Source: Elusimicrobiota bacterium (GTDB lineage: Bacteria > Elusimicrobiota > Elusimicrobia > UBA1565 > UBA9628). Taken from it: a stretch of DNA of 64,000 nucleotides. The stretch is from contig PLZD01000041.1 of assembly GCA_003151975.1 (NCBI GenBank), positions 335 through 64,334 of the forward strand. Direction: 5' to 3'. Position numbers and translations under genes: made by a program. The stretch's first letter is position 1; every line of letters begins with the position of its first letter. The notes under the pieces were generated by a model that was not told the origin of the DNA, made no database searches, and saw nothing but the letters and a program-made list of their open reading frames with translations. Below are positions 42,106 through 63,524 of this stretch, one piece after another.

Positions 42106-43932
42106 TCAGGCCGCCAGGACGACGCGCATGGCCTCGCTCAGTGACACCGTGCCCGAGGCGGCCAGCGAAAGCGCCGAGCGCCGGAGCTCCTGCATGCCCT
42201 CGCGCACCGCGATCGTGCGCATCATGTCGACGGGGACCGCGCCGCTGATGGCCGCGCGCATCTGCGGGGTGCGCACGGGCATGCTTTCATAGAGGGCGAT
42301 GCGGCCGGAGAAGCCGGTCTGACCGCAGGCGTTACAGCCCGCCGCGCGGTAGGTGCGCGCCAGCTCGCCGAGCTCAGCTTCGGAGAAATGCTTGCGGTCC
42401 TTCTCGGAGAGCACGGCGGGGACCTGGCAGTGCTGGCACAGGCGCCGCAGCAGCCGCTGCGAGACGACCAATTTCACGGCGGAGGCCAGAAGGTAGGGCT
42501 CCAGGCCCATCTGGGTCAGGCGCGACAGAGTGGCCGGCGCGCTGTTGGTGTGGATCGAGGAGAGGACCATGTGGCCGGTCAGCGACGCCTTGAGCGCGAT
42601 CTCGGCGGTCTCCTTGTCGCGGATCTCGCCGACCAGGATCACGTTAGGGTCCTGGCGCAGCGTCGAGCGCAGCACGCGCTCGAAGGTCAAGCCGATGCCC
42701 GCGTTGACTTGAATCTGAGTGATGCCCGGGATCTGGTATTCGACCGGGTCCTCGACGGTGACGACGTTGACGCCGGGATGGTTGATGGCCGCGAGCATCG
42801 CGTAAAGCGTGGTCGTCTTGCCGCTGTTGGTCGGCCCCGCCGTCAGGATGAGACCCTCGGAGGCCTGCAGCGCGGTCTCCACCTGGTCGATGCAGTGAGC
42901 CGACATGCCGATGCGGGAGAAGCTCGCCCCCGCCAAGGTCTCGCCGAGGATACGGATGACGATCTTCTCGCCAAATTTCGAGGGCAAGGTGCTGATGCGG
43001 AAATCGACTGGCGTTCCTTTATGAACGGCCCGGAACTGGCCGTCCTGCGGGAGACGCCGCTCGGTGATCACGAGGTCAGACATGATCTTGAGCCGGACCG
43101 CGACGCTGGTGTGGGCCGAGGCCGGCAGAGTGGTGATCGTCCGCATCGTGCCGTCGACGCGCGCGCGCACGGTGAGCATCCCTCTTCGCGGCTCGAAATG
43201 GATGTCGCTGGCGCCCAGCTCTATGGCGCGCACCAAGACGCGGTTGACGACCGCGATGACCGACGAATCCTTGCTCATGGTCTCGAGATCGGCCGATTGA
43301 TCCGCGGCGTTGACATGCGAGTCGAGAATGAGGCCGGCGGCCGAATCGGCGTCGCCGGGCTTTTCTTGGTCGACCGGGCCTTTCGCTCCGATGAGGGGAG
43401 CTTGGGAGCCCGCGGAGCCGCAAAAAGCGCCCTGGCCGGCGGGCATCTCTATGGAAAGCGCCTGGCGGACGGCCGCCAAAAGGTTCTGCGGAGCGATGGG
43501 CTTCCTTAGTACGGCCTGGGCGTCATGATGCATGCCGTCAAGGCAGGAGGATCGCGGGCTGCCCGTCAGCACGATGACGGGGATCTTGCGGGTGGCGTCG
43601 TCCATGCGCACGTTGGTGAGAAGCTCGTAGCCGTTCATCCCCGGAACTTCGAAATCGGTCAGGATCAAGTCGGGATGGCGCGTGCGCGCCGCCTCGAAAC
43701 CCTGGGCGCCGTCCGCGAAGTCCAGGACCTCGAACGAAAACGAACGGAACAGTTCGACGATCAGGCTTCGGCAATCCTCATTGTCCTCGATGACCACGAC
43801 ACGCAGACGCTCCGATTTTATGGCAGTCTCGGGCATGCGTTCGGCGAGCTCGGACAGGATTCCGTCGAGCTCGTCTGCGACGGCATCGAGAGAAACATCC
43901 GACGCGACGCCGAAGGAGGTTGTTTCGTTCAT
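42106..43932 (-). CDS. Receiver-GspE/PilB fusion secretion ATPase
   Basis: 608 aa from ATG 43932; the frame opens earlier, at 43974, but without support. A CheY-like receiver (residues ~40-165, VVVIEDNEDCRSL, phospho-acceptor in LILTDFEVPG, TGSPRSS) is joined by a linker to a type II/IV secretion ATPase: ASDIHFEPRRG, Walker A GPTNSGKTTT, Asp box, Walker B VILVGEIRD, His box and a C-terminal CQHC...CNACG zinc module. The N-terminal N1 domain of GspE appears to be replaced by the receiver, so assembly may respond to phosphorylation. Confidence 0.88.
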   Translation of the reverse strand: MNETTSFGVASDVSLDAVADELDGILSELAERMPETAIKSERLRVVVIEDNEDCRSLIVELFRSFSFEVLDFADGAQGFEAARTRHPDLILTDFEVPGMNGYELLTNVRMDDATRKIPVIVLTGSPRSSCLDGMHHDAQAVLRKPIAPQNLLAAVRQALSIEMPAGQGAFCGSAGSQAPLIGAKGPVDQEKPGDADSAAGLILDSHVNAADQSADLETMSKDSSVIAVVNRVLVRAIELGASDIHFEPRRGMLTVRARVDGTMRTITTLPASAHTSVAVRLKIMSDLVITERRLPQDGQFRAVHKGTPVDFRISTLPSKFGEKIVIRILGETLAGASFSRIGMSAHCIDQVETALQASEGLILTAGPTNSGKTTTLYAMLAAINHPGVNVVTVEDPVEYQIPGITQIQVNAGIGLTFERVLRSTLRQDPNVILVGEIRDKETAEIALKASLTGHMVLSSIHTNSAPATLSRLTQMGLEPYLLASAVKLVVSQRLLRRLCQHCQVPAVLSEKDRKHFSEAELGELARTYRAAGCNACGQTGFSGRIALYESMPVRTPQMRAAISGAVPVDMMRTIAVREGMQELRRSALSLAASGTVSLSEAMRVVLAA

Positions 43933-44069
43933 GCCCCAATGATGCCCGGATTTCTGAGCCGCCACAGGTGCCAATCGGGCCCCGCCGCGCGGGAATAGGA
44001 CCTAGAGATAAGATAGGCCCTCGGCCCAAAAGCGGGATCAGGGGCCTTTCTTTTTCTCTTCTTTGGCAC

Positions 44070-50176: not shown

Positions 50177-50192
50177 AGCGGCCCGATTTTAC

Positions 50193-50198
50193 TATAAT
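50193..50198 (+). promoter_or_regulatory. -10 box (TATAAT) of sub-operon 1 of the exopolysaccharide cluster
   Basis: TTTTACTATAATTT; the box ends 7 nt before ATG 50206, a leaderless spacing. The sequence around it is nearly the same as that before the paralogous receiver at 60161. Confidence 0.6.
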
Positions 50199-50205
50199 TT
50201 GCGCG

Positions 50206-50592
50206 ATGGCAAAAATCCTGGTCGTAGACGACGAGCCCACCATCGTGGCGATGATGAGCTTCATACTGCAGAAAGCGGGACACACCGTCTCGTCGGCCGG
50301 CAACGGCGTCGAAGCGGTGGCCGTCCTCGGCATCGATCCCGAAGACCCCGCGGCGCCCCTCCCCGATCTCGTGGTCCTCGACATCATGATGCCCATCATG
50401 GACGGCCATACGGTCGCCGTCATGATGAAGGAATCCGCCCACGCCAACAAGATCCCCATCCTCATAGTCACGGCCAAGAGCGACATGGCTCCCGCCTTCG
50501 AGGCCATCCCGTCGGTGGCCGGATTCTTCGTGAAGCCCTTCGACCCCAAGATCCTGCGCGAGACCGTCAACAAGCTGGTCGGCCAGAAGTGA
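50206..50592 (+). CDS. Stand-alone CheY-like response regulator, copy 1
   Basis: 128 aa, a receiver domain only. ILVVDDEP acidic pair, phospho-acceptor in LVVLDIMMP, conserved Thr in LIVTAKSD and Lys in FVKPFDP. Between helix 2 and strand 3 there is an unusual insert (LGIDPEDPAAPLPD) that the receiver at 60161 shares. No output domain, so it must act by binding a partner. Opens the exopolysaccharide cluster and overlaps the next gene by GTGA. Confidence 0.88.
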   Translation: MAKILVVDDEPTIVAMMSFILQKAGHTVSSAGNGVEAVAVLGIDPEDPAAPLPDLVVLDIMMPIMDGHTVAVMMKESAHANKIPILIVTAKSDMAPAFEAIPSVAGFFVKPFDPKILRETVNKLVGQK

Positions 50593-52487
50593 GGGGAGCC
50601 GTACTCGCGCTGGCGCTCTGCGCAAGCGTGCTCGGCGCCGCGAAATCGTACGCCGAGCCGCCTTCGCTGTACGATCAAGGAACTGACGCGCGCAAAAGCG
50701 GCGACTACGAGGGCTCCAAGAAGATATTCGCGGCGATGCTCCGCAAGGACTCGAAGAGCGGCGGCGCGCTCGAGGGCGCGGCTCTCGCCTGCCTCGCCCT
50801 TAAACAATACGACGAGGCCTACGACTACCTTTGGCGCTGGAACAAGATAAAGCCCGGAAGCCAATACATCCACGATCTCATGGCGCGCGCCCAGGCCGGA
50901 AGTACCGCCAAGTCCGCGTCACCCGCGGCTCAGCCCGCGGCTGCCGCGACTCAGGAGACGCCGGCCGCGCCGGTGTCAGTTTCGACCTCCCCCGCCGAGC
51001 CTTCGCTCTACAACGAGGGTTGGGACGCGCGCAATCGCAAGGACTACCATCTCTCCAAAGAATATTTCGCCAAGATGCTGGAGAAGGACCCGAAAAGCCG
51101 CGGCGCGCTCGAAGGACTCACGCTTGACTGCATGTCGCTGGGCGAATACCCCGAAGCGATCGGGTATCTCGAGCAATGGAAGAAGCTCTCGCCGAACAGC
51201 TCCTATGTGCTGGGCCTGCTCGCGCGCGCCCAGCGCGGCGCCGGCGACGACGTCGCGGCCCTGGGCACGACCGTCGAGCTGACCGAGGCGGACCCCCACG
51301 ACCTGGCCGCGCGGCGCAAGGTCGACTCCATCATGACCGACGACTACCCCGGGGTCTTCCCGTCGGGCCGCATCCGCAAGGCTCTCTCTTCGGAAGGTCT
51401 CGGCACAAGCAGCCCGCAACGCATCGTTTACGAGGGGCGCTACGGCGGCTTGCGCGCCCGCGTGCGCGCCACGCCCACGCTCGACCTCATCGGCGGCCTC
51501 GAGCTCGCGGAGGACGCCCAGCGCAACGACACCGGCGGCTTCATCTATTACGACGTGCTCGAGCACATCTCCACCTTCGGCCTCGAGTACCGGCCCAAGA
51601 AGGGCCTCTTCTTCTCGGGAGAGTATGGAGAAGACATTATCGACAACGTCCACGGCGCGGGCCTGCCGGGCCGCACTTACTTCAGCAAGGTCAAGCTCGT
51701 CGCGCGCGCGCATTTTCTCGACACGGATTGGGATTTGCAGGGAAGCCGCACGCCGTACTTCAACCGCGGCGCGGGCGGCAACAATTTCTTCTCGCTGCTG
51801 CGCGACGACGGCGCCAAGATTCAGGCCGAGCACGACGCGCTCGGGATGACTTGGCGCGGCAAGGCCGGCGTGGACGACTACTCCGAGGGCACGACGCTCA
51901 AGACCTGGTCCTTCCAAGGGACCAAGGAGTCGGGCGACAATCTCGTCGTTCCGAGCTACTCCCACAGCGAACAGGACTTCTACGGCTCGGCTCCTGACGG
52001 GCGTCTGGCCTACGTGCTGACCGACCGCTTCGGCGGCCGCGTGCGGCGCCTGGTCGAGGAAAAATACCAGCTCTCGGGCTCGGGCGGCTACAGCGTCTAC
52101 GCCGACGGCAACCGCCTGACCGACGCCTCTTTCGAGGCCATCGGCTGGCTGCCGTGGTACAAAGAACTTAGCGGCGGCTATCGCTTCGACTCGCTGTATT
52201 ACAAGTCCGACCTGGCGGGCTACAACTCGCTCACTTCGTTCTATCAGTGGCTCGGCGCTTATTGGCGCCACGACTGGAACCACGGCCTCTGGACCAGGAT
52301 CGGCTACGAGCACGGCTTCCTGTGGGACGCGGTCCGCACCCACTACGACGGCAGCGCGTGGCTCGCCGAGATCGAATGGTACCGCCATCGAGATCTCTCC
52401 TTCAAAGCTCAGGGGCGCGTCGGCCTCGATACGGTCCACGACCAATCCTACTCGGCGGGCTTGCAGGCGCGCTACAGCTTTCAATGA
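50589..52487 (+). CDS. TPR plus outer-membrane beta-barrel protein, PgaA/exopolysaccharide-export-like
   Basis: 632 aa from GTG 50589 (GTGA overlap with the receiver). Signal peptide 1-22. Residues ~25-250 hold two similar TPR blocks (PSLYDQGTDARKSGDYEGSK and PSLYNEGWDARNRKDYHLSK) joined by an Ala/Pro linker. Residues ~275-632 are an amphipathic beta-barrel with typical alternation (GLEYRPKKGLFFSGEYGED) and end in YSAGLQARYSFQ with a C-terminal Phe-Gln. The plan matches PgaA-type porins that thread polysaccharide across the outer membrane. Substrate inferred from the cluster. Confidence 0.72.
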   Translation: MRGAVLALALCASVLGAAKSYAEPPSLYDQGTDARKSGDYEGSKKIFAAMLRKDSKSGGALEGAALACLALKQYDEAYDYLWRWNKIKPGSQYIHDLMARAQAGSTAKSASPAAQPAAAATQETPAAPVSVSTSPAEPSLYNEGWDARNRKDYHLSKEYFAKMLEKDPKSRGALEGLTLDCMSLGEYPEAIGYLEQWKKLSPNSSYVLGLLARAQRGAGDDVAALGTTVELTEADPHDLAARRKVDSIMTDDYPGVFPSGRIRKALSSEGLGTSSPQRIVYEGRYGGLRARVRATPTLDLIGGLELAEDAQRNDTGGFIYYDVLEHISTFGLEYRPKKGLFFSGEYGEDIIDNVHGAGLPGRTYFSKVKLVARAHFLDTDWDLQGSRTPYFNRGAGGNNFFSLLRDDGAKIQAEHDALGMTWRGKAGVDDYSEGTTLKTWSFQGTKESGDNLVVPSYSHSEQDFYGSAPDGRLAYVLTDRFGGRVRRLVEEKYQLSGSGGYSVYADGNRLTDASFEAIGWLPWYKELSGGYRFDSLYYKSDLAGYNSLTSFYQWLGAYWRHDWNHGLWTRIGYEHGFLWDAVRTHYDGSAWLAEIEWYRHRDLSFKAQGRVGLDTVHDQSYSAGLQARYSFQ

Positions 52488-53344
52488 GCCGCGCGCTGTT
52501 GAGCTTGGCGCTGGGCGCGGCGCTCTGCTGGAGCGCCCTGCGCGCCGCGTCTCTGCAGCGGCCCTCTCTTGCCGCGGCCGACGCCGGCAGTCTGTGGGAT
52601 AAAGCCAAGGAGTTGCGCGTCGAAGGTCGACACCGGCAGGCGCTGCACTCGGTCCAAGAACTGCTCGCCTCCTACCCGGACAATCCGATTTATCTGTCGT
52701 TTGCCGCCGAGCTTTACGGCGAGCTCAAGGACCCCGCGCGCGAGGCGGCCGCGTGGGAGCTCTTCATGCCGGTGGCGCCGTTTCCGACGGACGCCTGCCC
52801 GCGGCTCGGGCAAGCGTATCGCGCGCTGGGCAAAATCGACAAAGCGCTCGACGCGGATAACCGCTGCCTCGAGCTCGATCCTTCGAAGACCGACCTCATT
52901 TTCTTCAAGGGACACGAGCTGGAACGCCAGGACCGCTGCGCCGACGCGACGGTCCTCTACCAAAAAATCCTCGAGCGCGTCCCCGATCACAGCGACGCGA
53001 CCTTGGGGCTGGCGCGCTGCAAGCTTTCCGACGGCGACGTCGCGGGCGCCAAGTTGCTCGTCGACCGCGTGCTCGCCGGCAACCCTCGCAACACCGACGC
53101 GCTGGCCTCCGCCGCTCGGATCAGCGAAAAGAGCGACGATTACAAGAGCGCCCAACAATTTCTGCGCGAGGCGATCCTGCAAAGCCCCTCTTACACCGAC
53201 CTCTACTTGATGATGGGCCGCGTCAGCCTCGAGGCCGGAGACAAGGACGAGGCGCGCAAGGCGTACACGACGCTGCACGACATCGACTCCAAGGATCCGA
53301 CGGCGGCGCGCAAGCTCAAGGAACTGGAGCAAAGCGGCCGATGA
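52484..53344 (+). CDS. Secreted TPR protein
   Basis: 286 aa, ATGA overlap with the barrel gene. Signal peptide 1-21, then six or so TPRs (EGRHRQALHSVQELLASYPD, YRALGKIDKALDADNRCLEL, YQKILERVPDHSDATLGLAR). Periplasmic adaptor that may bridge the outer-membrane barrel and the synthase or modification enzymes. No catalytic motif. Confidence 0.8.
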   Translation: MSRALLSLALGAALCWSALRAASLQRPSLAAADAGSLWDKAKELRVEGRHRQALHSVQELLASYPDNPIYLSFAAELYGELKDPAREAAAWELFMPVAPFPTDACPRLGQAYRALGKIDKALDADNRCLELDPSKTDLIFFKGHELERQDRCADATVLYQKILERVPDHSDATLGLARCKLSDGDVAGAKLLVDRVLAGNPRNTDALASAARISEKSDDYKSAQQFLREAILQSPSYTDLYLMMGRVSLEAGDKDEARKAYTTLHDIDSKDPTAARKLKELEQSGR

Positions 53345-55710
53345 AGCAGCGGCGCCTCACGGAGACTCTTTCGCGCGCGGCCCTCTTCGCGTTTTCGCTC
53401 GCGACCTCCGCTTACGCCTTGCTCTGCGGCCTCGAGTTCGCCTGGAACAACCTGCTCAAGGACCGGCGCTACCCGCTCTGGGTCGGGCTCTGGCTCGATC
53501 ATCACGCGGCCATCGGCGCGGCCGTCGCGGCGCTCGCGCTGATCCCGCTCTCGGGCCGCCGCCGGTGGCTCTGGGCCGCGGCGGTCGGGCTGTATCTTGC
53601 CGCGGATCTCAAGCCGGGGCTCGCCGCGCTGGGATTGGGCGACGCGGCGCGAGCGCTGGCTTTTCTGGCCTGGCTTCCGTACGCCGCGTGGGAACTCGCG
53701 TTGGCGCGGGGCTCTCCCGCGCTCGATTGGGAGAAGCTGCCGCCGGCGGACGAGGGTCTATCCTACGCCGGCACGGCCGCAGGCTTGATCGTGGGGGCCG
53801 CGTACGCCGCGGCATCATCGGCGCGCTCGGTTCCGGTCCTGGCCTGGAGCCTCGTCGTGCACGCCGCGATGGGGTGCGGCGCGGGACTCGTCCTCGACGC
53901 GGCGCGGCTGTTTTCCATGGCTTCGAAGCGCCCGCGCCGGACGTTGGCGTGGTTCATCTTCGCTCTGCTCGCGCTCTCCGGGACTTGCGTCGTCTACATC
54001 CTCGCGATGCTCCCGCTGCCGTTCGCCAAGCCCTACGCCGCGGCCTACGCGGCCGTCGTTTCTTCGTTGGGGGCCTTAGCATTCGTGCGCCAATGGTCGC
54101 TGCGCCCGGGCGCGCTGCGCGGGGTGATGGCGTCGCGCTTCGGACGATTCGCCGGAGTGGCGGCCTTGCTCGCGGCGCCCGCTGTGATTCGCTCCGCCGT
54201 GGGCAATGCCGATTGGGATTTCCTGTTCGCGACTTTGCTCGCGGCCGGTCTTTGGGGCGCGGCGCTCCTGTTCTGTTCCGCGTGGCCGCGCCGCAAAAGC
54301 GCCGCGGGCTGGGCGCTGCCGGCGGTTTTGCTCGCGTCCTGCCTCGGCGCGCAAGAGGCGCTGGCTCGGCTCGATCCGTGGCTGCGCTTCTCGGGCTGGG
54401 ACCTCCGCGCTCCCGCCGCGGCTCTCGTCGACGCCGACCCGTCCTTGCTGGCCCTGCGCCGCGCGGTCGCGGCGGTCAAGCCCGCCTCCGATTTCTACGG
54501 ATTTCTCCACCGCAGCACGAACATACCGCGGTCAGTGCCTGTCTCGCCAAAGAACATCGTCCTTTCGACGGTGCCGCCCGGGCGCCTTCAGAAGAATCCA
54601 AACATTTTCGTGATCGTGATCGACAGCCTGCGCCAGGACTACACCGGCCCCTACAATCCCGCCGTCAAGTTCACGCCGTCCTTGGACGCGCTGGCCTCCG
54701 ACAGCCTCGTGTTTCGCGACGCCTTCACGGCATACGGCGCGACGGGACTCTCCGAGCCCTCGATTTGGGCCGGCGCGCGCCTGGTCCACAAGCAGTACGT
54801 GCTGCCCTTCTCCCCGATGAACTCGCTCGAAAAGCTCGTCGTCTCCGAGGGATACCGGCGGCTGATCACGGTCGACGTGCTCCTCTCCCAACTGCTCGAA
54901 GCGGGCACGGCCTCGGAAAAGCTGGACGAGCATACCGAAGGCAATTACAAGCTCTGCGGTTCTCTCGAAGAGCTCGACGCCAAGCTTTCGGCCGGAGCGG
55001 ACCAGAGGCCCGTCTTCGCCTATACGCAGCCGCAGGACATCCACATATCGGTCATTTCGCGCGAAGGCGCGCAGCCGGTTTCCGCGGGCGCCTTCGACGG
55101 CTTCTACGCGCCTTACGCCAGCCGCGTGGCGCGCATGGACGAGTGCCTCGGCAAGTTCGTCGCTTCGCTCAAAGCCAAAGGGCTTTATGACGACAGCATC
55201 ATCGTCGTCACGGCCGATCACGGGGACTCGCTCGGAGAGTCGGGGCGCTGGGGTCACGCGTACACTCTCTTCCCCGAGGTCCTGCGCGTGCCGCTCATCA
55301 TCCGCGTGCCGGAGCGCCTCAAGAAAGACAAAGTTTGGGACCTGGACGCCCCGGCCTTTCTCATCGACGTCGCGCCGACGCTTTATTCGCTGCTCGGTCG
55401 CGCGCCGGACGCCGCGCCCGGCGTCGTCGGCCGCAGTCTCCTCGGCGCCGACGCGAAGACTCTGGCCGCCACGGTTCCGGAATCGTCTCTCGAGGTCTCC
55501 AGCTACGGACCGGTCTACGGCCTTCTGCGCGAGCGCGGCCGCTGGCTCTACATCGCCGACGGAGTCAACTACCAGTCATACCTCTTCGACCTGCGCGCGG
55601 ATCCCAAAGGCCGCAGGAATCTTTCCGATCCCGCGGCCGAGGCGCTTTACAATCCCCCGCTCCGCGCCGCCGTCGAGGAAGTCAACGCCTTCTACGGGTT
55701 TAAGCCGTAG
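53341..55710 (+). CDS. Membrane sulfatase / phosphoglycerol- or phosphoethanolamine-transferase-like protein
   Basis: 789 aa, ATGA overlap upstream. About ten membrane helices (residues 1-370) and a periplasmic alkaline-phosphatase-fold domain from ~420: FVIVIDSLRQDY (metal Asp), candidate nucleophile in YGATGLSEPSIW, and VTADHGDSLGESGRWGH (metal Asp/His). The nucleophile region has Thr/Ser rather than the sulfatase CxPxR, as in LtaS/EptA-type transferases. It may decorate the polysaccharide or lipid with a phospho-group. Confidence 0.78.
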   Translation: MKQRRLTETLSRAALFAFSLATSAYALLCGLEFAWNNLLKDRRYPLWVGLWLDHHAAIGAAVAALALIPLSGRRRWLWAAAVGLYLAADLKPGLAALGLGDAARALAFLAWLPYAAWELALARGSPALDWEKLPPADEGLSYAGTAAGLIVGAAYAAASSARSVPVLAWSLVVHAAMGCGAGLVLDAARLFSMASKRPRRTLAWFIFALLALSGTCVVYILAMLPLPFAKPYAAAYAAVVSSLGALAFVRQWSLRPGALRGVMASRFGRFAGVAALLAAPAVIRSAVGNADWDFLFATLLAAGLWGAALLFCSAWPRRKSAAGWALPAVLLASCLGAQEALARLDPWLRFSGWDLRAPAAALVDADPSLLALRRAVAAVKPASDFYGFLHRSTNIPRSVPVSPKNIVLSTVPPGRLQKNPNIFVIVIDSLRQDYTGPYNPAVKFTPSLDALASDSLVFRDAFTAYGATGLSEPSIWAGARLVHKQYVLPFSPMNSLEKLVVSEGYRRLITVDVLLSQLLEAGTASEKLDEHTEGNYKLCGSLEELDAKLSAGADQRPVFAYTQPQDIHISVISREGAQPVSAGAFDGFYAPYASRVARMDECLGKFVASLKAKGLYDDSIIVVTADHGDSLGESGRWGHAYTLFPEVLRVPLIIRVPERLKKDKVWDLDAPAFLIDVAPTLYSLLGRAPDAAPGVVGRSLLGADAKTLAATVPESSLEVSSYGPVYGLLRERGRWLYIADGVNYQSYLFDLRADPKGRRNLSDPAAEALYNPPLRAAVEEVNAFYGFKP

Positions 55711-55741
55711 TGTCCCGTCATAAGGACGCAACAAAAATTCG

Positions 55742-55747
55742 TAACAT
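55742..55747 (+). promoter_or_regulatory. -10-like box (TAACAT) of sub-operon 2
   Basis: TAACAT ends 6 nt before ATG 55754 in a 43-nt AT-rich gap, the only gap in this part of the cluster. Confidence 0.35.
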
Positions 55748-55753
55748 ATAGAT

Positions 55754-56122
55754 ATGCTCGGAGATGGGAAGAAGATATTGATTTTTGAGGATAATCCCAC
55801 CATCGCTCTTTTGCTGCGCACTTTTTTCGAGCGGCGCCGCTACGCGGTCAAGCTCTGCGAGGACGGCACCGAAGCGGTCAAGGCCGTCCGGGAATACGCG
55901 CCCAACCTGATCATCATGGACGTCATCATGCCCGGCAAGGACGGCATCGAGGCGTGCACGGACCTGCGCCGCGAAGGCGTGAGGACTCCCATCATCATCC
56001 TGTCCTCGAAAGCTTACGAGGACGACAAGCAGCGCGGCCTGGCCGCCGGCGCCAACGCGTATCTGCTCAAGCCTTTCGACCCCAAGAAGCTCGAAGAAAT
56101 CATCGCGCCCCTGCTGAGCTAG
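55754..56122 (+). CDS. Stand-alone CheY-like response regulator, copy 2
   Basis: 122 aa, receiver only. ILIFEDNPT, phospho-acceptor in LIIMDVIMPG, SSKAY and LLKPFDPKK are intact. It lacks the insert seen in copies 1 and 3, so it is a more distant paralogue. Opens the HEAT/glycosyltransferase/deacetylase sub-operon; its TAG overlaps the next GTG by one base. Confidence 0.88.
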   Translation: MLGDGKKILIFEDNPTIALLLRTFFERRRYAVKLCEDGTEAVKAVREYAPNLIIMDVIMPGKDGIEACTDLRREGVRTPIIILSSKAYEDDKQRGLAAGANAYLLKPFDPKKLEEIIAPLLS

Positions 56123-56868
56123 TGCACCCGCACCGAAGCCAGGCCCTCCACATGCTGTCTTTGGCCCTGCAAGGCCATTTCAGCCTGGACATGATCGTCT
56201 TCACCACCATTGTGCTCTTCTGGATCGTGGCGATCCTGATCACCTACATGCTGCTCCTGCGCAGCTACTATTATCTGCGCGCGCGCTACATGGCCTCGCG
56301 CCGCAAGCTCTACGAGCCCGCCATCGAGCTCGTGCTGCTCGACGAGCCGCAGGAGAAGGTGCTCGACGCCCTGGCGCCGAAGCGTTGGGGCGACCGCGAG
56401 GTGATCCTCCGCGTTATCCTCGACTCGATGCGCCATCTGGAGGGGCCGCCCTTCGACTCCCTGCAGGCCGCGTGCTTCAAGCTGGGCTTCATGGACCGCG
56501 CTCTCAAGCAGCTCTCGTCTCGAAACAAGCTCCGCCGCGGCCGGGCCATGGAGGCTCTCGGGATCATGCGCGCCCATCCCGCGATGCTGGCCATCATCAT
56601 GCTCCTCCCCAAGCAGCCGAGGGACATGAAGCTCGTGGCCCTGCGGTCCCTGTCTCTGATCCGCGATCCGTTCGCGCTGCCTTACTACGAGCGCGAGGCG
56701 GAGACCCTGCCGCCGACCATGCTGCCGCGCCTGGCTTCGCTCATGCTCGAGTTCGGCCCCCCCGCCCAGCCTTTCATCCGAACCTTGATCAACGACCGGC
56801 CCGAGGCCTTTCCGCCGCGCGTCATGAAGCTTCTGCTCCAGGAAACCGCGCACTACGCGGCGCTATGA
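56122..56868 (+). CDS. Membrane-anchored HEAT-repeat-like protein
   Basis: 248 aa from GTG 56122 (ATG 56152 is an alternative). One long membrane helix (IVFTTIVLFWIVAILITYMLLL) and a cytoplasmic part of paired helices (VLDALAPKRWGDREVILRVI, RAMEALGIMRAHPAMLAIIM, KLVALRSLSLIRDPFALPYY, MLPRLASLMLEFGPP) that read as HEAT repeats. From memory, such proteins precede GT2 synthases in several genomes and may scaffold the synthase or bind the receiver. ATGA overlap with the synthase. Confidence 0.7.
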   Translation: MHPHRSQALHMLSLALQGHFSLDMIVFTTIVLFWIVAILITYMLLLRSYYYLRARYMASRRKLYEPAIELVLLDEPQEKVLDALAPKRWGDREVILRVILDSMRHLEGPPFDSLQAACFKLGFMDRALKQLSSRNKLRRGRAMEALGIMRAHPAMLAIIMLLPKQPRDMKLVALRSLSLIRDPFALPYYEREAETLPPTMLPRLASLMLEFGPPAQPFIRTLINDRPEAFPPRVMKLLLQETAHYAAL

Positions 56869-58316
56869 TCGGAATCATCGCGCGCGCGCAGATTGTCTTC
56901 GAATGGGTGCTCGTCTATTACTTCTTCATCCTCAACACGGTCTACATCGGCCTTTCGCTGATCGCCTACCGCGAGGTCTACCGGCATCTGCGCCGCACGA
57001 CCTACGGCGGCTACGAGCACGTTTCGCGCAGCCCGCTCACGCCCCCCATCTCGGTGATCGTGCCCGCCTTCAACGAAGAGGTCTCCATCGCGCTGACAGT
57101 GCTCAATCTCCTGCACCTCGACTACATGCGCTACGAGATTATCGTCGTCAACGACGGCTCGACCGACGAGACCATGGCTCGGCTCATCAAGGCCTTCGAG
57201 CTCGAGCCCACCAAGGACGACGTCGATGACCAGCTTAAGACCAAGCCCCTACGGGCTCTCTACAAGTCGCGGCGTCACCACAACCTGCTTGTCATTGACA
57301 AAGAGAACGGAGGCAAGAGCGACTCGCTCAACGCGGGCCTCAACAAGGCCACGCATCCCTACTTCTGCTCGGTGGACGCCGACGTGATCATGGAGGCCGA
57401 CGCGCTTCAGCGCGTAATCCTGCCGGTTTTGGAATCGGAGGAGCGAGTCATCGCGGTCGGCGGCATCGTGCGCGTGTCCAACGGCTGCCACCAAGCCAAG
57501 GGCCGCATCACGGACGTCTCGCTGGGCTCCAATCCTCTGGCCATCTTCCAGATCATCGAATATTTCCGCGCCTTTCTCTGCGGCCGCACCGGCTACTCCC
57601 GCCTCAACGCCCTCCTGATCATCTCGGGAGCCTTCGGGCTTTTCGAACGAGAGCTGGTCATGACCATCGGCGGCTACAAGACCGACACGGTCGGCGAGGA
57701 CATGGACCTCGTAACGCGCCTGCACGTCTACATGCGCGAAAGCGACCAGGAGGACCATACGGACCACCGGGACTACGCCATCAGCTTCGTCCCCGATCCC
57801 GTCTGCTGGACCGAGGCGCCCGCGTCCTTTAAGGTGCTCTCGCGTCAGCGACGGCGATGGCAGAAAGGGCTCATGGAAGTCCTCTGGCAGCATACCGGGA
57901 TGTTCTTCAATCCGAAGTATGGGTTCATCGGCTTCTTCACGTATCCGTTTCTTCTGCTCTTCGAAGGCTGGGGCGTGATCCTAGAGTTCCTCGGCTACGT
58001 TTTCTTCGCTATGGCATGGTGGCGCGGCGCCATCGAGACCGATTTCGCGATCGCATTCATGTTCGTGGCCTTCTTCGCCGGCGCCGTCCTGTCGCTCATC
58101 GGCGTCCTTCTGGGCGAGATGACGCCTCGGCCCTACCCGAAGGCATCGCAGTGGATCGGCCTGACCCTTTTCGCTTTCCTCGAAAATTTCGGCTATCGCC
58201 AATACACCTCGGTGCTGCGGCTGCTGGGACTTTTCGATTGGATCTTCAACGCGGGCAGTTGGGGGCGCATGGAGCGCGAGGGCATCGAAGCCGACAAACA
58301 CATGGCCGAAGTATGA
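56865..58316 (+). CDS. Processive family 2 glycosyltransferase (polysaccharide synthase, PgaC/hyaluronan-synthase-like)
   Basis: 483 aa. N-terminal membrane helix, GT2 core ISVIVPAFNEE, IIVVNDGSTDET, DXD in CSVDADVIM, acceptor-site EDMDL and the processivity motif RQRRRW, followed by three or four C-terminal helices. These residues mark an enzyme that elongates beta-linked chains at the inner membrane while extruding them. Central enzyme of the cluster. Confidence 0.88.
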   Translation: MIGIIARAQIVFEWVLVYYFFILNTVYIGLSLIAYREVYRHLRRTTYGGYEHVSRSPLTPPISVIVPAFNEEVSIALTVLNLLHLDYMRYEIIVVNDGSTDETMARLIKAFELEPTKDDVDDQLKTKPLRALYKSRRHHNLLVIDKENGGKSDSLNAGLNKATHPYFCSVDADVIMEADALQRVILPVLESEERVIAVGGIVRVSNGCHQAKGRITDVSLGSNPLAIFQIIEYFRAFLCGRTGYSRLNALLIISGAFGLFERELVMTIGGYKTDTVGEDMDLVTRLHVYMRESDQEDHTDHRDYAISFVPDPVCWTEAPASFKVLSRQRRRWQKGLMEVLWQHTGMFFNPKYGFIGFFTYPFLLLFEGWGVILEFLGYVFFAMAWWRGAIETDFAIAFMFVAFFAGAVLSLIGVLLGEMTPRPYPKASQWIGLTLFAFLENFGYRQYTSVLRLLGLFDWIFNAGSWGRMEREGIEADKHMAEV

Positions 58317-60139
58317 GGCTGCGCGCCTTCCTCGCCGGCGGTGTGCTCTTGCTGATTTTTTTGTGGCGGCTCACGGAACGCAAACCGACGGAAGGGCCGC
58401 TCGGAACCGAGACGGGCGACTCCGCGAGCGAGAACGCTCTGCTGGCGCGCTCGCATCCCGATCTCATGCCCGAACAAGTCGCGATCCTGCTGCTGCGCCC
58501 CGAGCAGGAGGCCCTCCCGGCGGCAAGAGCTCTCGAGCCCGCGGGCGTGCCGTTCACGGTCACGACGGATCGCCCTGCGGCGTTTCGTCACCGCGTGGTC
58601 TTCGTTCCGTTCGGCGAGAAGGCCGTGCGGCTTGACGAGAAGCTTCGCTCCTCCTTCAGCGACTTCGTCTCGAGCGGCGGCGTGCTCGTGCTTCAAGTGC
58701 CGCCGGAGAATCCTTGGAGCTGGCTGACCGGCGTGGAGTCGGCCGCACCATCCCGACAGCGCAAGAAGCTCTCTTTTCGCCTGCTGGCCGACCCCATCTT
58801 CGCCAAGCTCGTAGAGCCCGAGGAGCAGTGGCTGCCGCTAGGCGCTCCGGATTCCAGCGAGGCGATATGGACTCAAGGGCTGCGTCCACTGCGCGAGTCG
58901 GGAGCCGAGGCGATCTCGGACTACACGGAGACCGGAGAGGGCGCGATCATGCGGCGCAGGCTCGGCGCGGGAACGGTCTATACTCTCGGATTCAACCTGC
59001 GCGACCTGGTCGTCAGGCCGCAGGCCGAGCGCCATTTTGACGCCGCGCGCGTCTCTGCCGACGGCTTCGAGCCGGCCGTCGACATTTTGGCCCTCATCTG
59101 GCGCGCGCTCTACGAGAAGTCCAATCCCTTCTGGGCGCGGTTGCGCGCGAGCCCGGAGGCCGGGCCGCTCCTCCTGATGACCCACAGCTTCGGACGGGGC
59201 GCGCAAGCCGCGCAAGCCAGGGAGTTCGCCGTGCTCGAGTCCTCGCGCGGCATCAAATCGACCTGGTTCCTCGAGACGAGGACCGGCGCCGAGAACACCG
59301 ACACGCCGTTCTTCGACGAAAAGATGCGCACCTTGGCCGCCGATCTCCAGCGCGCCGGGCACGAGGTCGCAAGCCACGGCGTCTCTCACGGCGCCGATTT
59401 CGCGCGCCTGCCGCTGGGCGGCGCGCAGGCCCCGAAGGATTATCGCCCGGAAGTCGACGAGGAAGGGCAGAGCCTCGGCGCCACGCTCAACGGCGAAGCC
59501 TCGGTCAGCAAGACCTTGCTCGAAGCGGCCGTTTCCTCGACGGGAACGGTCTTGGGATTCCGCGGCCCCGCGTTCGCCTATCCTCCCGCGCTCGACGCCG
59601 TGCTTGAGAAGGCGGGCTACGCCTACGATTCCAGCCTCGCCGCCAACGCGTGCCTGACGCATTTTCCGTTCCTGCTTCTAAAGAATCGCGCGCTGTCGGA
59701 GGAAAGCGGGATCATCGAGTTTCCCGTGACCTTCCGCGGGGCCGCGGCGGAGGAAGCGGCGGCAGTTCGGAAAATTTCCGCGTACGAGGGCGCCGTGGTC
59801 TGGGACATCCCCCCCGACGGCGACCAAGCGCAGCGGCGCCGTTTGGTCGATGCGCTCGCGGCGGCTCCCGCCGGCGCGCGCTGGCGCACGCTGTCCGACG
59901 CGGCGCTGTTCTGGAGGCGTCGTTCGCAGGCGCGATTCTCGTTTTCCGACGGCCCCGGCCCGGGCCAGAAGACGCTTTGGGTCGGCTCTCCCGCGGGAAT
60001 TGGGGGCCTCTCGTTTTCCTTGTCGGCGCGCGCCAAGGCTTGCGCCGGAGACGTTCAGGTCGACTGTCGCGACGCCACGATATCGATACCGGAAGCCGTC
60101 GCGGCTCCTGAGGCGCGCATCATCCTGACCCTGGAGTGA
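58313..60139 (+). CDS. NodB-like polysaccharide deacetylase with N-terminal GATase-like domain, altered motif 1
   Basis: 608 aa, ATGA overlap with the synthase. N-terminal anchor (residues ~5-20). Residues ~45-260 are alpha/beta with AILLLRPEQEALPAARALE and SSGGVLVLQVPP, like glutamine-amidotransferase-type domains that have lost catalysis. From ~285 a NodB fold: motif 2 ASHGVSHGAD (HxxxH) and motif 3 GFRGPAFAYPP are present, but motif 1, normally TFDDG, reads MTHSFGRG, so the catalytic and one metal Asp are missing. Deacetylase activity is doubtful; it may bind glycan. Confidence 0.72.
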   Translation: MRLRAFLAGGVLLLIFLWRLTERKPTEGPLGTETGDSASENALLARSHPDLMPEQVAILLLRPEQEALPAARALEPAGVPFTVTTDRPAAFRHRVVFVPFGEKAVRLDEKLRSSFSDFVSSGGVLVLQVPPENPWSWLTGVESAAPSRQRKKLSFRLLADPIFAKLVEPEEQWLPLGAPDSSEAIWTQGLRPLRESGAEAISDYTETGEGAIMRRRLGAGTVYTLGFNLRDLVVRPQAERHFDAARVSADGFEPAVDILALIWRALYEKSNPFWARLRASPEAGPLLLMTHSFGRGAQAAQAREFAVLESSRGIKSTWFLETRTGAENTDTPFFDEKMRTLAADLQRAGHEVASHGVSHGADFARLPLGGAQAPKDYRPEVDEEGQSLGATLNGEASVSKTLLEAAVSSTGTVLGFRGPAFAYPPALDAVLEKAGYAYDSSLAANACLTHFPFLLLKNRALSEESGIIEFPVTFRGAAAEEAAAVRKISAYEGAVVWDIPPDGDQAQRRRLVDALAAAPAGARWRTLSDAALFWRRRSQARFSFSDGPGPGQKTLWVGSPAGIGGLSFSLSARAKACAGDVQVDCRDATISIPEAVAAPEARIILTLE

Positions 60140-60148
60140 GGGGTTTAC

Positions 60149-60154
60149 TATAAT
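60149..60154 (+). promoter_or_regulatory. -10 box (TATAAT) of sub-operon 3
   Basis: TTTACTATAATTT; ends 6 nt before ATG 60161. Nearly identical to the promoter at 50193. Confidence 0.6.
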
Positions 60155-60160
60155 TTCCCG

Positions 60161-60556
60161 ATGGCCAAGATTCTGATCGTCGACGACGAGCCCGCCGTGG
60201 TCCAGCTCATGTGCTTCATCCTGGAGCGGGTCGGCCACACCGTCACTCAGGCGTTCAACGGCCAGGAGGCATTAAAAGTCCTCGGCGTCGCGCCGGTAAA
60301 CCCCGAGGCGCCCCTGCCGGACCTCATCCTGCTCGACGTGATGATGCCCATCGTGGACGGCTACACGGTCGCCATCACGCTCAAGAACGACCCGCGCGCA
60401 AGCGTGGTGCCCCTGCTCGTGATCACGGCCAAGTCCGACATGCGCAACATGTTCAGCGCCTTGCCCAACGTGAAGGCTTTCTTCAACAAACCCTTCGATC
60501 CCAAAAGCCTGCGCGAGGCGGTCGCCAAGATCGTCGCGGCTCAGCCTCCGGCATGA
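60161..60556 (+). CDS. Stand-alone CheY-like response regulator, copy 3
   Basis: 131 aa, closely related to copy 1: ILIVDDEP, the shared insert (LGVAPVNPEAPLPD), phospho-acceptor in LILLDVMMP, VITAKSD and FFNKPFDPK. Receiver only. Opens the last sub-operon; ATGA overlap with the PAP2-like gene. Confidence 0.88.
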   Translation: MAKILIVDDEPAVVQLMCFILERVGHTVTQAFNGQEALKVLGVAPVNPEAPLPDLILLDVMMPIVDGYTVAITLKNDPRASVVPLLVITAKSDMRNMFSALPNVKAFFNKPFDPKSLREAVAKIVAAQPPA

Positions 60557-61350
60557 CCCCTCCCCGACGAGGCAAGGAGCTCGAGAATCAGATCGAGCTG
60601 CTGGAAAAACGCTTCCGCGACTCCGCCGAAGAGCTCAAGGACGTACGCCTGAAGATGCTTCAGCTTACTCAGGAGGAGCTCGAGGAGATCAAGGACGAGT
60701 GGCACGGCGTCCATTACAAGTGGTGGGTGATCACGCTCTCGGGCGTGCTGGCCCTGCTGATGTTCTCCTACTTCTTCTACACCAAGCTCGGCTGGGTCGC
60801 CGACCAGCGCCAGCTCCCTACGGGCTCGGATTGGCTGCTGCGGCGCCTGCCCGTCGTCGACGTCCTGCCGATACTCTCTTGGGGATTCTTCGCCCTGCAC
60901 ATCTTCGCGGTCGGCGCCGCCGTCCTCTACTACCCGCGGCGCATGCCGTTCCTGATGTTCATGCTGAGCACCTATCTCATCATCCGCGCGCTCTTCGTGT
61001 TCCTTTCGCCGATCGGCGCGCCCGTCGGTATCGTCGACATGCGCCAGTTCGACTTCATCTTCGCCAAGATCATGGGGACCTGGACCTTCAACAACGAGTT
61101 TATTTTTTCGGGCCACACGGGCATCCCGTTTCTTTTTTACTTATTCTTCGAGACGCGCGGTCTCAAGACGGTGATGATGCTGGGCTCGATCACGATGGCC
61201 GTGTGCGTGCTGCTCTCGCACAACCACTACACCGTCGACGTGCTCGCGGGCTATCTCGTCTCGTATTCGATCTACGCGCTCTCCGAAAAACTTTATTACG
61301 GCTGGATCAGGCCGCTGTTCCAAGTCGGCCACTCCTCAGTACGCTACTGA
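60553..61350 (+). CDS. PAP2-like / sphingomyelin-synthase-like membrane protein
   Basis: 265 aa. N-terminal coiled coil (residues ~8-45), then six membrane helices. EFIFSGHTGIPF and LLSHNHYTVDVLAGYLVSY carry the His/Asp residues of the PAP2_C (sphingomyelin synthase) family, which transfers phospho-head-groups between lipids. Could recycle the polyprenyl carrier or attach a phospho-group to the polysaccharide. Last gene of the cluster. Confidence 0.78.
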   Translation: MTPPRRGKELENQIELLEKRFRDSAEELKDVRLKMLQLTQEELEEIKDEWHGVHYKWWVITLSGVLALLMFSYFFYTKLGWVADQRQLPTGSDWLLRRLPVVDVLPILSWGFFALHIFAVGAAVLYYPRRMPFLMFMLSTYLIIRALFVFLSPIGAPVGIVDMRQFDFIFAKIMGTWTFNNEFIFSGHTGIPFLFYLFFETRGLKTVMMLGSITMAVCVLLSHNHYTVDVLAGYLVSYSIYALSEKLYYGWIRPLFQVGHSSVRY

Positions 61351-61811: not shown

Positions 61812-61882
61812 GGCCTCGTCGCGTAATGAGAGCGCGGGACTCTTCTAGAGTCCAGGTCCGGGTTCGACTCCCGGCGAGGCCT
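61812..61882 (+). tRNA. tRNA-like, anticodon TCT (Arg), degenerate D-loop
   Basis: 71 nt. Acceptor GGCCTCG/CGAGGCC, anticodon stem GGACT/AGTCC with loop CTTCTAG, T-arm CCGGG TTCGACT CCCGG. D-loop AATGAGA has no GG. Four bases separate it from the previous tRNA-like, and its end overlaps the stop of the convergent gene. CCA not encoded. Confidence 0.6.
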
Positions 61883-63524
61883 AGACTTTCGTCTTCGCCG
61901 CGTCCTGCTCGGCGACGAACTTGCCGGCGAAGCGGCTGATGACCCCCGACGCGAAGACGCGCGCGATGCCGATGAGCATCGAGAATCCCATCAGGTAGAT
62001 GAAGCCGATGCTCTTCATCGAAAGGTCCAGCGCTTCGCCGCCCTTGCCCGAGCCGAAGGCCCAGGCGATAAAGAAGCCGACGATGGGCAAACCGAGAAAA
62101 GTTCCGGTGTCGAAGTTGAGGGTCTTGCCGTCGTGGTCGGCGCGGGCGGCCTTGATGAAGAAACGCGTCGCCAGCTGGAAGAAGGAGAGCCCCAGCAGGA
62201 GCGCGACGTCGGCGAAATTCATCAGCGAACGGCCCAGAGGGATCCAGTCGAGCGCGCCGCCCAGTCGCATCAGATCGAGGCCGTTGCCGAGCATGCCGCC
62301 GAGCATCATCGCGATCGAGACGTCGTAGAGGCGCATCGCCCATTTCAACGACGGGTGCTTGGCCAGCATCGTGTCCACGCCCGAGATCGTCACCTTATGG
62401 AAGCCGAGTCCCCGCAGCGCCGCGCTCGAGAGGTCGCGCAATCGCTGCACCCAACGCCAGGACGAAGGCTTGTCGGTCATGCTCGCGCCCAGGATCGCGT
62501 CTTTATAAAAGCCGAGTCTCCCGTTGCCGAGCTGTTCGCTCGACCACTTCCACGACCACTTCCACATCGTGTGGTCGTTGGCCAGCGGCGCGCGCGCCTT
62601 GTACGCGGTAAACCAGATGAACGGCACGATGAACTCCATCATCGGCTTGCGCCACGAGGCCTCGTGGAACATCGTGAAGACGAATTTTGGGGCGAGAAAC
62701 TTCGTGCCCCAGTCGAGGCCGACGAACAAGACGACGCCCGCCAAGATCGGCAAGGCCCACTTCATGACCGTCCTGAATTTCGAGGGCGAGGGCGCGGCGG
62801 GTGCCGCGGCCTTGGGCGCGGGCAGGTCTGCCCCGCGCTTGATTTCACCGACGGCGCTTGAAGGCGCGAGCTGCTGTGAGAAAGCGTGTTCGCCGCCGAC
62901 GGTCGGGGTCCCCATCTCCTCCGGAGTCTTTCCCTTTTCCCAAGAGCGCGTTCCGTCGCCGACGATGCTCGAAATCGTCCGGCTCTTTTGCACCTCAAGC
63001 GCGGACGCCACATCGGACAGGCTCGCCTTCAAAGCTGGATTGTGCGCGGAGAGACCGCGCAGGGCGGCCGCGGCGTCCTCGAGATCGACTTCGCCGACGC
63101 GCCCCGAGTCGATCGCGTCCTGCAGACGCTTCAAGACCTCCGCGTTTTCCTTGCCCGCGGTCTGGCCGGCGGCGACCATGTACGGCTTGAACGATTCCGC
63201 GATGCGCGCGCCTGAATTAGCATCGAGGTCCTTGCCCGCCATGACCTCGGCCCAAAGCTGGGGCGGCACCTGGCCGACCAGCGCGCCGGCGGCGTAGCGG
63301 GCGGCGTTCGGGTCGAGCGTGACGATCTCGGAGGCGCCCGGCAAATTCGCGCCCGCGCCGCGCAGAAAATTCTGGAAGAGATTGGCCGTGCCGACGGTGG
63401 ATTGGCGTCCCGACACGATGGGCTCGACGGCCATCCGGCCGGCGGGCAGGCCGCCTTCGGGCATCGTGATCGCGAAAACCGGCGAGGCCAGCAAGATGAC
63501 GGAAAGCGCGATGGACTTGATCAT
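61881..63524 (-). CDS. Large secreted/membrane protein with a signal-peptidase-II-like domain
   Basis: 547 aa, signal peptide 1-18. Residues ~20-250 are a soluble, helical, alanine-rich periplasmic region. From ~260 come membrane segments resembling LspA: LDWGTKFLAP (DxxTK box), GGMLGNGLDLMRLGGALDWIP with Asp426 and NFADVALLLG with Asp439, matching the LspA motifs around the two catalytic aspartates, though their spacing (13) is shorter than usual. It may be an aspartic lipoprotein-processing protease or a derived non-enzyme. About three times the size of LspA. Confidence 0.6.
   Translation of the reverse strand: MIKSIALSVILLASPVFAITMPEGGLPAGRMAVEPIVSGRQSTVGTANLFQNFLRGAGANLPGASEIVTLDPNAARYAAGALVGQVPPQLWAEVMAGKDLDANSGARIAESFKPYMVAAGQTAGKENAEVLKRLQDAIDSGRVGEVDLEDAAAALRGLSAHNPALKASLSDVASALEVQKSRTISSIVGDGTRSWEKGKTPEEMGTPTVGGEHAFSQQLAPSSAVGEIKRGADLPAPKAAAPAAPSPSKFRTVMKWALPILAGVVLFVGLDWGTKFLAPKFVFTMFHEASWRKPMMEFIVPFIWFTAYKARAPLANDHTMWKWSWKWSSEQLGNGRLGFYKDAILGASMTDKPSSWRWVQRLRDLSSAALRGLGFHKVTISGVDTMLAKHPSLKWAMRLYDVSIAMMLGGMLGNGLDLMRLGGALDWIPLGRSLMNFADVALLLGLSFFQLATRFFIKAARADHDGKTLNFDTGTFLGLPIVGFFIAWAFGSGKGGEALDLSMKSIGFIYLMGFSMLIGIARVFASGVISRFAGKFVAEQDAAKTKV

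Follow-up and report, generated by a model that had tools for sequence, protein, structure and literature searches.

A predicted exopolysaccharide locus with stand-alone receivers in an Elusimicrobiota bacterium, and the widespread HEAT-GT2 class to which it belongs

Ten plus-strand open reading frames occupy positions 50206-61350 of a 64,000-nucleotide stretch of Elusimicrobiota DNA (this whole stretch is called the window below; it lies on contig C34 of a 4.64-Mb metagenome-assembled genome). Judged from their sequences, they form a variant of the synthase-dependent exopolysaccharide (EPS) systems within a widespread class in which stand-alone receivers accompany a HEAT-repeat protein and a family 2 glycosyltransferase (GT2). 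The gene order is receiver RR1, outer-membrane tetratricopeptide-repeat (TPR) barrel, TPR protein, sulfatase-fold protein, receiver RR2, HEAT protein, GT2, NodB-like protein, receiver RR3 and PAP2_C protein (Table 1). We favour, with a probability of roughly 0.55, a system in which the phosphorylated receivers would act by way of the membrane-anchored HEAT protein to control its partner, the GT2. An earlier note on this DNA had proposed a phosphorylation-controlled polysaccharide cluster that matches no named system; its observation is partly confirmed and its interpretation partly supported.

The most constant feature of this class is the pairing of HEAT and GT2 genes. One scan of 84,980 genomes with an alignment of 12 GT2 sequences returned 80 loci, and the counts given here describe these best-scoring loci only, irrespective of kinship (many are from Bacillaceae). 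They span Acidobacteria, Actinobacteria, Bacteroidota, Bacillota, Bdellovibrio, Gemmatimonadota, Proteobacteria and archaea, among others; the GT2 identity is 61-67% for the four close Elusimicrobiota among them and 41-48% for the rest. A HEAT gene lies directly upstream of the GT2 gene in 76 of the 80 loci by a first profile and in 78 by a broader one, the two loci without it (L067 and L110) both being cut by a contig end. In 65/80 loci a receiver lies within 3.5 kb, and across 752 kb of outer flanks there are 41 receiver matches. The neighbourhood search for GT2, HEAT and receiver suggested in the earlier note thus returned HEAT as the most constant partner of the synthase, with a receiver commonly near. 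The window itself fits this subfamily, since HEAT is directly upstream of GT2 and RR2 ends 29 nucleotides before HEAT. Among the plasmid matches that were opened, HEAT adjoins GT2 at 33-43% GT2 identity in Halosolutus, Deinococcus, Mesorhizobium, Emticicia (where HEAT is unannotated and recognized by a profile match and a sub-cut-off Pfam match only), Erythrobacter, Planococcus, Devosia, Bacteroides and Legionella; plasmid GT2s at 27-28% identity (Sphingobium, Sulfitobacter) are longer proteins with no adjoining HEAT.

The partners of the pair vary between lineages. Alphaproteobacteria have the order NodB (with an intact motif), receiver, TPR/YaiO barrel, HEAT and GT2, and Mesorhizobium has an ATP-binding protein (a probable kinase), two receivers, YaiO, HEAT, GT2 and Hpt. 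The Bacillaceae version consists of a receiver-GGDEF-receiver fusion, HEAT, GT2, a large protein, a receiver and a hybrid kinase. Kinase, Hpt or hybrid-kinase genes adjoin HEAT-GT2 loci in Mesorhizobium, Devosia and Bacillaceae. In L123 (11792-15010) and other Bacillaceae, some 25 loci in all, a protein of about 1,070 residues is encoded next to the pair; the representative scanned gave no Pfam match. Bdellovibrio (L100) and Acidobacteria (L081) have TPR and sulfatase-fold genes in common with the window. The arrangement of receiver, TPR-barrel, HEAT and GT2 recurs widely (in Mesorhizobium, Devosia and Erythrobacter, and with other partners in Bdellovibrio, Acidobacteria, Bacillaceae and haloarchaea), so that the locus is no one-off; that it matches no named system holds for the literature searched. 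No paper naming or studying the HEAT-GT2 pair was found in that search, which most subscription journals lay beyond, and the mentions of HEAT that were met are unrelated to the pair.

Within the Elusimicrobiota order, two families keep a block composed of an insert-type receiver before the outer-membrane barrel (RR-A), barrel, TPR protein, sulfatase-fold protein, an insert-free receiver beside HEAT (RR-B), HEAT, GT2 and NodB-like protein. The block is complete in loci L047 and L025, and L021 has in addition another NodB gene and a PAS-repeat gene as an insertion; the inserted gene (L021, 10536-11702) encodes PAS repeats only, without a kinase domain, and stands divergently between the cluster halves. 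The TPR and sulfatase-fold genes are missing from L046, the whole export half is missing from L022, which keeps both receivers side by side, and L023 is a contig fragment. As the relatives carry two receivers in the same places, the core of the system comprises two receivers and the third is an addition: the three receivers of the earlier note are reduced to two that are conserved with the cluster, a count of three being peculiar to this genome. RR3 and the PAP2 protein are, on this comparative evidence, lineage-specific additions; relatives of the PAP2 protein (68-69%) were seen only in L022 and in L147, in the latter paired with a receiver.

All three receivers, of 122-131 residues and without an output domain, keep the acid pair, the phospho-accepting Asp, the Thr/Ser and the Lys of single-domain response regulators, and the phosphorylation residues are complete in 18/18 aligned receivers. 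RR1 orthologues precede the outer-membrane barrel in L021, L025, L046 and L047, and the RR2 type adjoins HEAT in 7/7 relatives examined. In the relative L024, a PAS-HisKA kinase and a further receiver adjoin the receivers of the cluster. The insert that RR1 and RR3 share had been thought rare; 50 of 57 relatives contain receivers that match RR1 at E<=1e-20, in many cases arranged as tandem pairs. A recent duplication giving rise to RR1 and RR3 was considered and rejected, as the tree leaves the two unresolved and their identity is 58%. Insert-bearing receivers make up a large family in the phylum, in which L158 and L160 show a tandem pair beside a lysyl-tRNA-synthetase-like gene (named by eye). 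In three sister genomes (L144, L148 and L155) receiver-A stands beside a YgjP-like gene together with a 490-residue PAS-domain protein, and the remaining cluster genes were not found there. Elsewhere in the window (42106-43974, minus strand) a type II/IV secretion ATPase (T2SSE, PF00437, 391 bits) carries a fused receiver domain.

The HEAT protein gave no Pfam match. Its AlphaFold (AF2) model has a pLDDT of 95.7 and is all helical with one long N-terminal helix, its closest structural matches are designed HEAT-like alphaRep proteins (Z about 14), and hydropathy places a hydrophobic segment at residues 12-30. It is shorter than the usual 330-410 residues and lacks the C-terminal WWVR repeats; orthologues in the family and phylum are 42-55% identical. 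In the GT2, the DxD, GEDM and QRRRW motifs are invariant in 12/12 aligned sequences, and a PDB profile search with this protein found no close homologue.

In the mechanism that these observations suggest, the inner-membrane GT2 would polymerise a nucleotide sugar and pass the chain through its own transmembrane channel, a role predicted from its processive signature and transmembrane segments. The HEAT protein, a putative cytoplasmic solenoid with one N-terminal transmembrane anchor, would partner the GT2 in a physical complex, as the pairing of the genes suggests. RR-B, phosphorylated by a kinase encoded elsewhere, would dock on HEAT/GT2 and serve as a post-translational on/off switch of polymerisation. 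The export half (TPR-barrel, TPR protein and Thr-nucleophile enzyme) begins with RR-A, which may act on it, so that synthesis and export could be set by separate phospho-signals or transcripts. The NodB-like protein has lost its deacetylase site and more probably has a part in binding or guiding the polymer. A phospho-group may be attached in the periplasm by the sulfatase-fold enzyme, and RR3 with PAP2, behind a copy of the RR1 promoter, would be an addition specific to this lineage. The phosphorylation control claimed in the earlier note is thereby upheld for the residues that it needs, and the control step itself is one that we infer.

It is conceivable, at somewhat less than even odds, that a class of processive synthases widespread in bacteria and archaea is governed in this way, by phosphorylated receivers acting through a constant, membrane-anchored HEAT subunit and not by cyclic di-GMP (c-di-GMP) acting on a PilZ- or PgaD-type site; no description of such control was found in the literature searched. 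If true, synthase-dependent polysaccharides would have a second, phospho-signal route of control besides c-di-GMP, and because HEAT-GT2 is also present in organisms that grow in culture and are amenable to experiment (Mesorhizobium, Bacillaceae, haloarchaea), the idea can be tested without uncultured Elusimicrobiota.

Several points weigh against control of the synthase by receivers. No receiver lies nearby in 15/80 HEAT-GT2 loci, nor at the Bacteroides and Legionella plasmid loci, so that the receiver is not essential for the HEAT-GT2 core, and this genome has so many receivers (138 PF00072 matches) that chance should bring some of them next to the cluster. The receivers could instead work in gene regulation, in phosphate buffering or with an unrelated partner. 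That they are parts of a phosphorelay or phosphate sink, or transcription regulators with distant partners, which make no contact with the synthase while the EPS operon merely travels along, is unlikely in our judgement. Such a role would agree with the occurrence of insert-type receivers at unrelated loci throughout the phylum, the tandem pairs mentioned above among them, and the Bacillaceae receiver-GGDEF-receiver fusions would work through c-di-GMP; however, RR-B is directly beside HEAT in every relative of the order examined and in many phyla, which favours a local role.

The identity of the product raises two further alternatives, both improbable. The cluster might be a pga-like poly-N-acetylglucosamine system with the GT2 as PgaC, the TPR-barrel as PgaA and the NodB-like protein as PgaB: PgaC_IcaA and PgaA are indeed the best NCBIfam matches of the GT2 and the outer-membrane protein, and in Halosolutus GlmS and a nucleotidyltransferase stand beside HEAT-GT2. 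However, these scores lie far under the equivalog cut-offs, the NodB active site is lost and a HEAT partner is foreign to pga, which leaves this identification with little credit; the earlier note was right to call this a polysaccharide-synthase cluster other than a pga operon. Equally hard to credit is a phospho-polymer or glycolipid machine, whose core would be the Thr-nucleophile enzyme and PAP2_C moving phospho-headgroups, with the GT2 decorating a lipid-linked product. It would suit Emticicia, where an LTA-synthase-family gene adjoins HEAT-GT2 and YaiO, and the Bdellovibrio and Acidobacteria versions with their sulfatase-fold gene, but the sulfatase-fold gene is absent from most HEAT-GT2 loci (found in 6/80 by profile, two of the six weak), PAP2 is missing in most relatives, and the GT2 has a processive signature and transmembrane segments. 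Receiver control of an EPS synthase through HEAT is the reading that we favour.

The domains that the earlier note had assigned to the other cluster genes were mostly recovered: receivers, TPR, sulfatase fold, GT2 and PAP2_C by Pfam, HEAT by the structure model only, and NodB weakly, under its cut-off. The outer-membrane protein has TPR Pfam matches, a weak match to PgaA under the cut-off and a strand-rich C-terminus, and did not match PF19413 (YaiO). Its AF2 model shows TPR helices followed by about 18-20 strands, a count on which we do not rely because the model is only moderate (mean pLDDT 69, pTM 0.49); BcsC is among its top Foldseek matches, at moderate confidence, and the VIA-align rows of this protein cover mainly the TPR part. 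The sulfatase-fold protein, which has transmembrane segments, had been called LtaS/EptA-like; the fold stands, with the correction that Thr468 takes the place of the sulfatase Cys. Thr468 is invariant in 7/7 sequences, along with Asp428, Asp626/His627 and His639, and aligns with the formylglycine Cys position of phosphonate monoester hydrolase; in place of the C/S-x-P-x-R of formylglycine sulfatases all seven have T-G-L-S-E or T-G-L-S-V. Phospho-modification of the polymer by this enzyme is possible.

The deacetylation step implied by the earlier note fared less well. The NodB-like protein matches PF01522 at 20.0 bits against a cut-off of 23.1, and its motif 1 reads THSFG instead of [TS][FYH]D[VI]D, with loss of the catalytic and metal-binding Asp pair. 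The second, metal-binding Asp of this motif is replaced by Gly in 6/6 aligned Elusimicrobiota orthologues, which makes deacetylation unlikely, and the first Asp is kept only in L057; motif 1 is intact in alphaproteobacterial relatives and in one paralogue. The protein is likely non-catalytic, and the possibility of an active deacetylase was rejected. Beyond the cluster, at 61881-63524 on the minus strand, the window encodes a 547-residue membrane protein whose C-terminal half weakly matches signal peptidase II (Peptidase_A8).

The ten genes are closely packed, with 4-nucleotide overlaps at five junctions: barrel/TPR (52484), TPR/sulfatase (53341), HEAT/GT2 (56865), GT2/NodB (58313) and RR3/PAP2 (60553). 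Gaps precede the receivers, of 29 nucleotides for RR1 (to a divergent YgjP gene), 43 for RR2 and 21 for RR3. The overlaps agree with the earlier note; its statement that gaps occur only before receivers does not, as there is a further gap of 29 nucleotides between RR2 and HEAT, which an alternative HEAT start at GTG 56122 would close. The nearly identical promoters reported for RR1 and RR3 were borne out, since the common 13-mer TTTACTATAATTT occurs without mismatch just twice in the 4.64-Mb genome, once before each gene. A -10 at leaderless spacing is present before these two receivers, and RR2 has only a weak -10-like TAACAT; -10-like hexamers also precede RR-B in L021, L023, L025, L046 and L047 (by eye). 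Leaderless promoters as a special trait of the cluster were rejected, for TANNNT hexamers peak at 6-7 nucleotides before the start codons of 41 genes with upstream gaps (window and L032), which suggests that this genome commonly makes leaderless or near-leaderless transcripts. Three separate transcripts from the cluster are plausible.

Table 1. Coordinates of genes and promoter elements of the cluster in the window (all on the plus strand)
Feature	Position	Pfam match	Remarks
Promoter 13-mer of RR1, TTTACTATAATTT	50188..50200		-10 TATAAT at 50193-50198, 7 nt before ATG
RR1, stand-alone receiver	50206..50592	PF00072, 74 bits	128 aa; insert between alpha2 and beta3; DDE/D59/T/K110 intact
Outer-membrane exporter candidate	50589..52487		signal peptide, TPR, C-terminal beta-barrel; alternative start GTG 50628
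Periplasmic TPR protein	52484..53344	TPR families	286 aa; kept in L021, L025, L047, Bdellovibrio L100, Acidobacteria L081
Membrane-anchored alkaline-phosphatase/sulfatase-fold protein	53341..55710	PF00884, 90.6 bits	Thr468 at nucleophile position
Weak -10-like TAACAT	55742..55747		6 nt before RR2 start
RR2, stand-alone receiver	55754..56122	PF00072, 105.6 bits	no insert; phosphorylation residues intact
HEAT-repeat protein	56152..56868		238 aa; one N-terminal transmembrane helix; alternative start GTG 56122
Processive GT2 polysaccharide synthase (predicted)	56865..58316	PF00535, 81.2 bits	transmembrane segments at both ends
Transmembrane-anchored GATase-like and NodB-fold protein	58313..60139	PF01522 and PF08532, weak	degenerate active site
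Promoter 13-mer of RR3, TTTACTATAATTT	60144..60156		-10 at 60149-60154, 6 nt before ATG
RR3, insert-bearing receiver	60161..60556	PF00072, 69.5 bits	58% identity to RR1
PAP2_C/sphingomyelin-synthase-like membrane protein	60553..61350	PF14360, 42.3 bits	

Among known arrangements, the core genes are held in common with unnamed receiver / YaiO-TPR barrel / HEAT / GT2 clusters (Mesorhizobium pMESCI01, Devosia, Erythrobacter and Bdellovibrio qaytius L100). The alphaproteobacterial clusters have the order receiver, barrel, HEAT and GT2 as in the window, and L100 has TPR and sulfatase-fold genes before its receiver, also present here. The window differs from them in its two to three receivers, its shorter HEAT protein without the WWVR repeats, its degenerate NodB and its added PAP2, and in that no kinase or Hpt gene adjoins its cluster, whereas such genes adjoin some of the others. 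The LtaS / EptA / YejM alkaline-phosphatase superfamily resembles the window protein in its transmembrane-anchored sulfatase fold with Thr at the nucleophile position, although the sequence matches to it are only partial.

With pgaABCD and icaADBC the window shares a GT2 synthase, a TPR-barrel exporter and a NodB-fold protein. In contrast to these systems, its GT2 scores 123.6 bits against a cut-off of 422.3 for TIGR03937 (PgaC_IcaA) and its outer-membrane protein 36.4 against 366.65 for TIGR03939 (PgaA); no PgaD match was found, no NCBIfam Pga cut-off was reached, the NodB catalytic residues are lost, and HEAT and receivers are present. The bacterial cellulose system BcsABC resembles the window in its processive GT2 and TPR-barrel exporter, BcsC being among the best fold matches of the outer-membrane protein, yet the CelA model gives 33.2 of 699.1 bits, no PilZ domain was found, and the window has HEAT and receivers. 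In synthase-dependent pathways, c-di-GMP is frequently involved in post-translational control (PMC12802240). The closest experimental precedent for receiver control of an EPS enzyme is, by our comparison, EpsW of Myxococcus xanthus, a single-domain receiver that activates the EPS phosphoglycosyl transferase EpsZ by direct contact (PMC12802240). Both cases link a phosphorylatable single-domain receiver to an EPS enzyme; EpsZ, however, belongs to a Wzx/Wzy pathway, in which it acts as a phosphoglycosyl transferase, whereas the window encodes a processive GT2 with a HEAT partner, on which the receivers would act directly.

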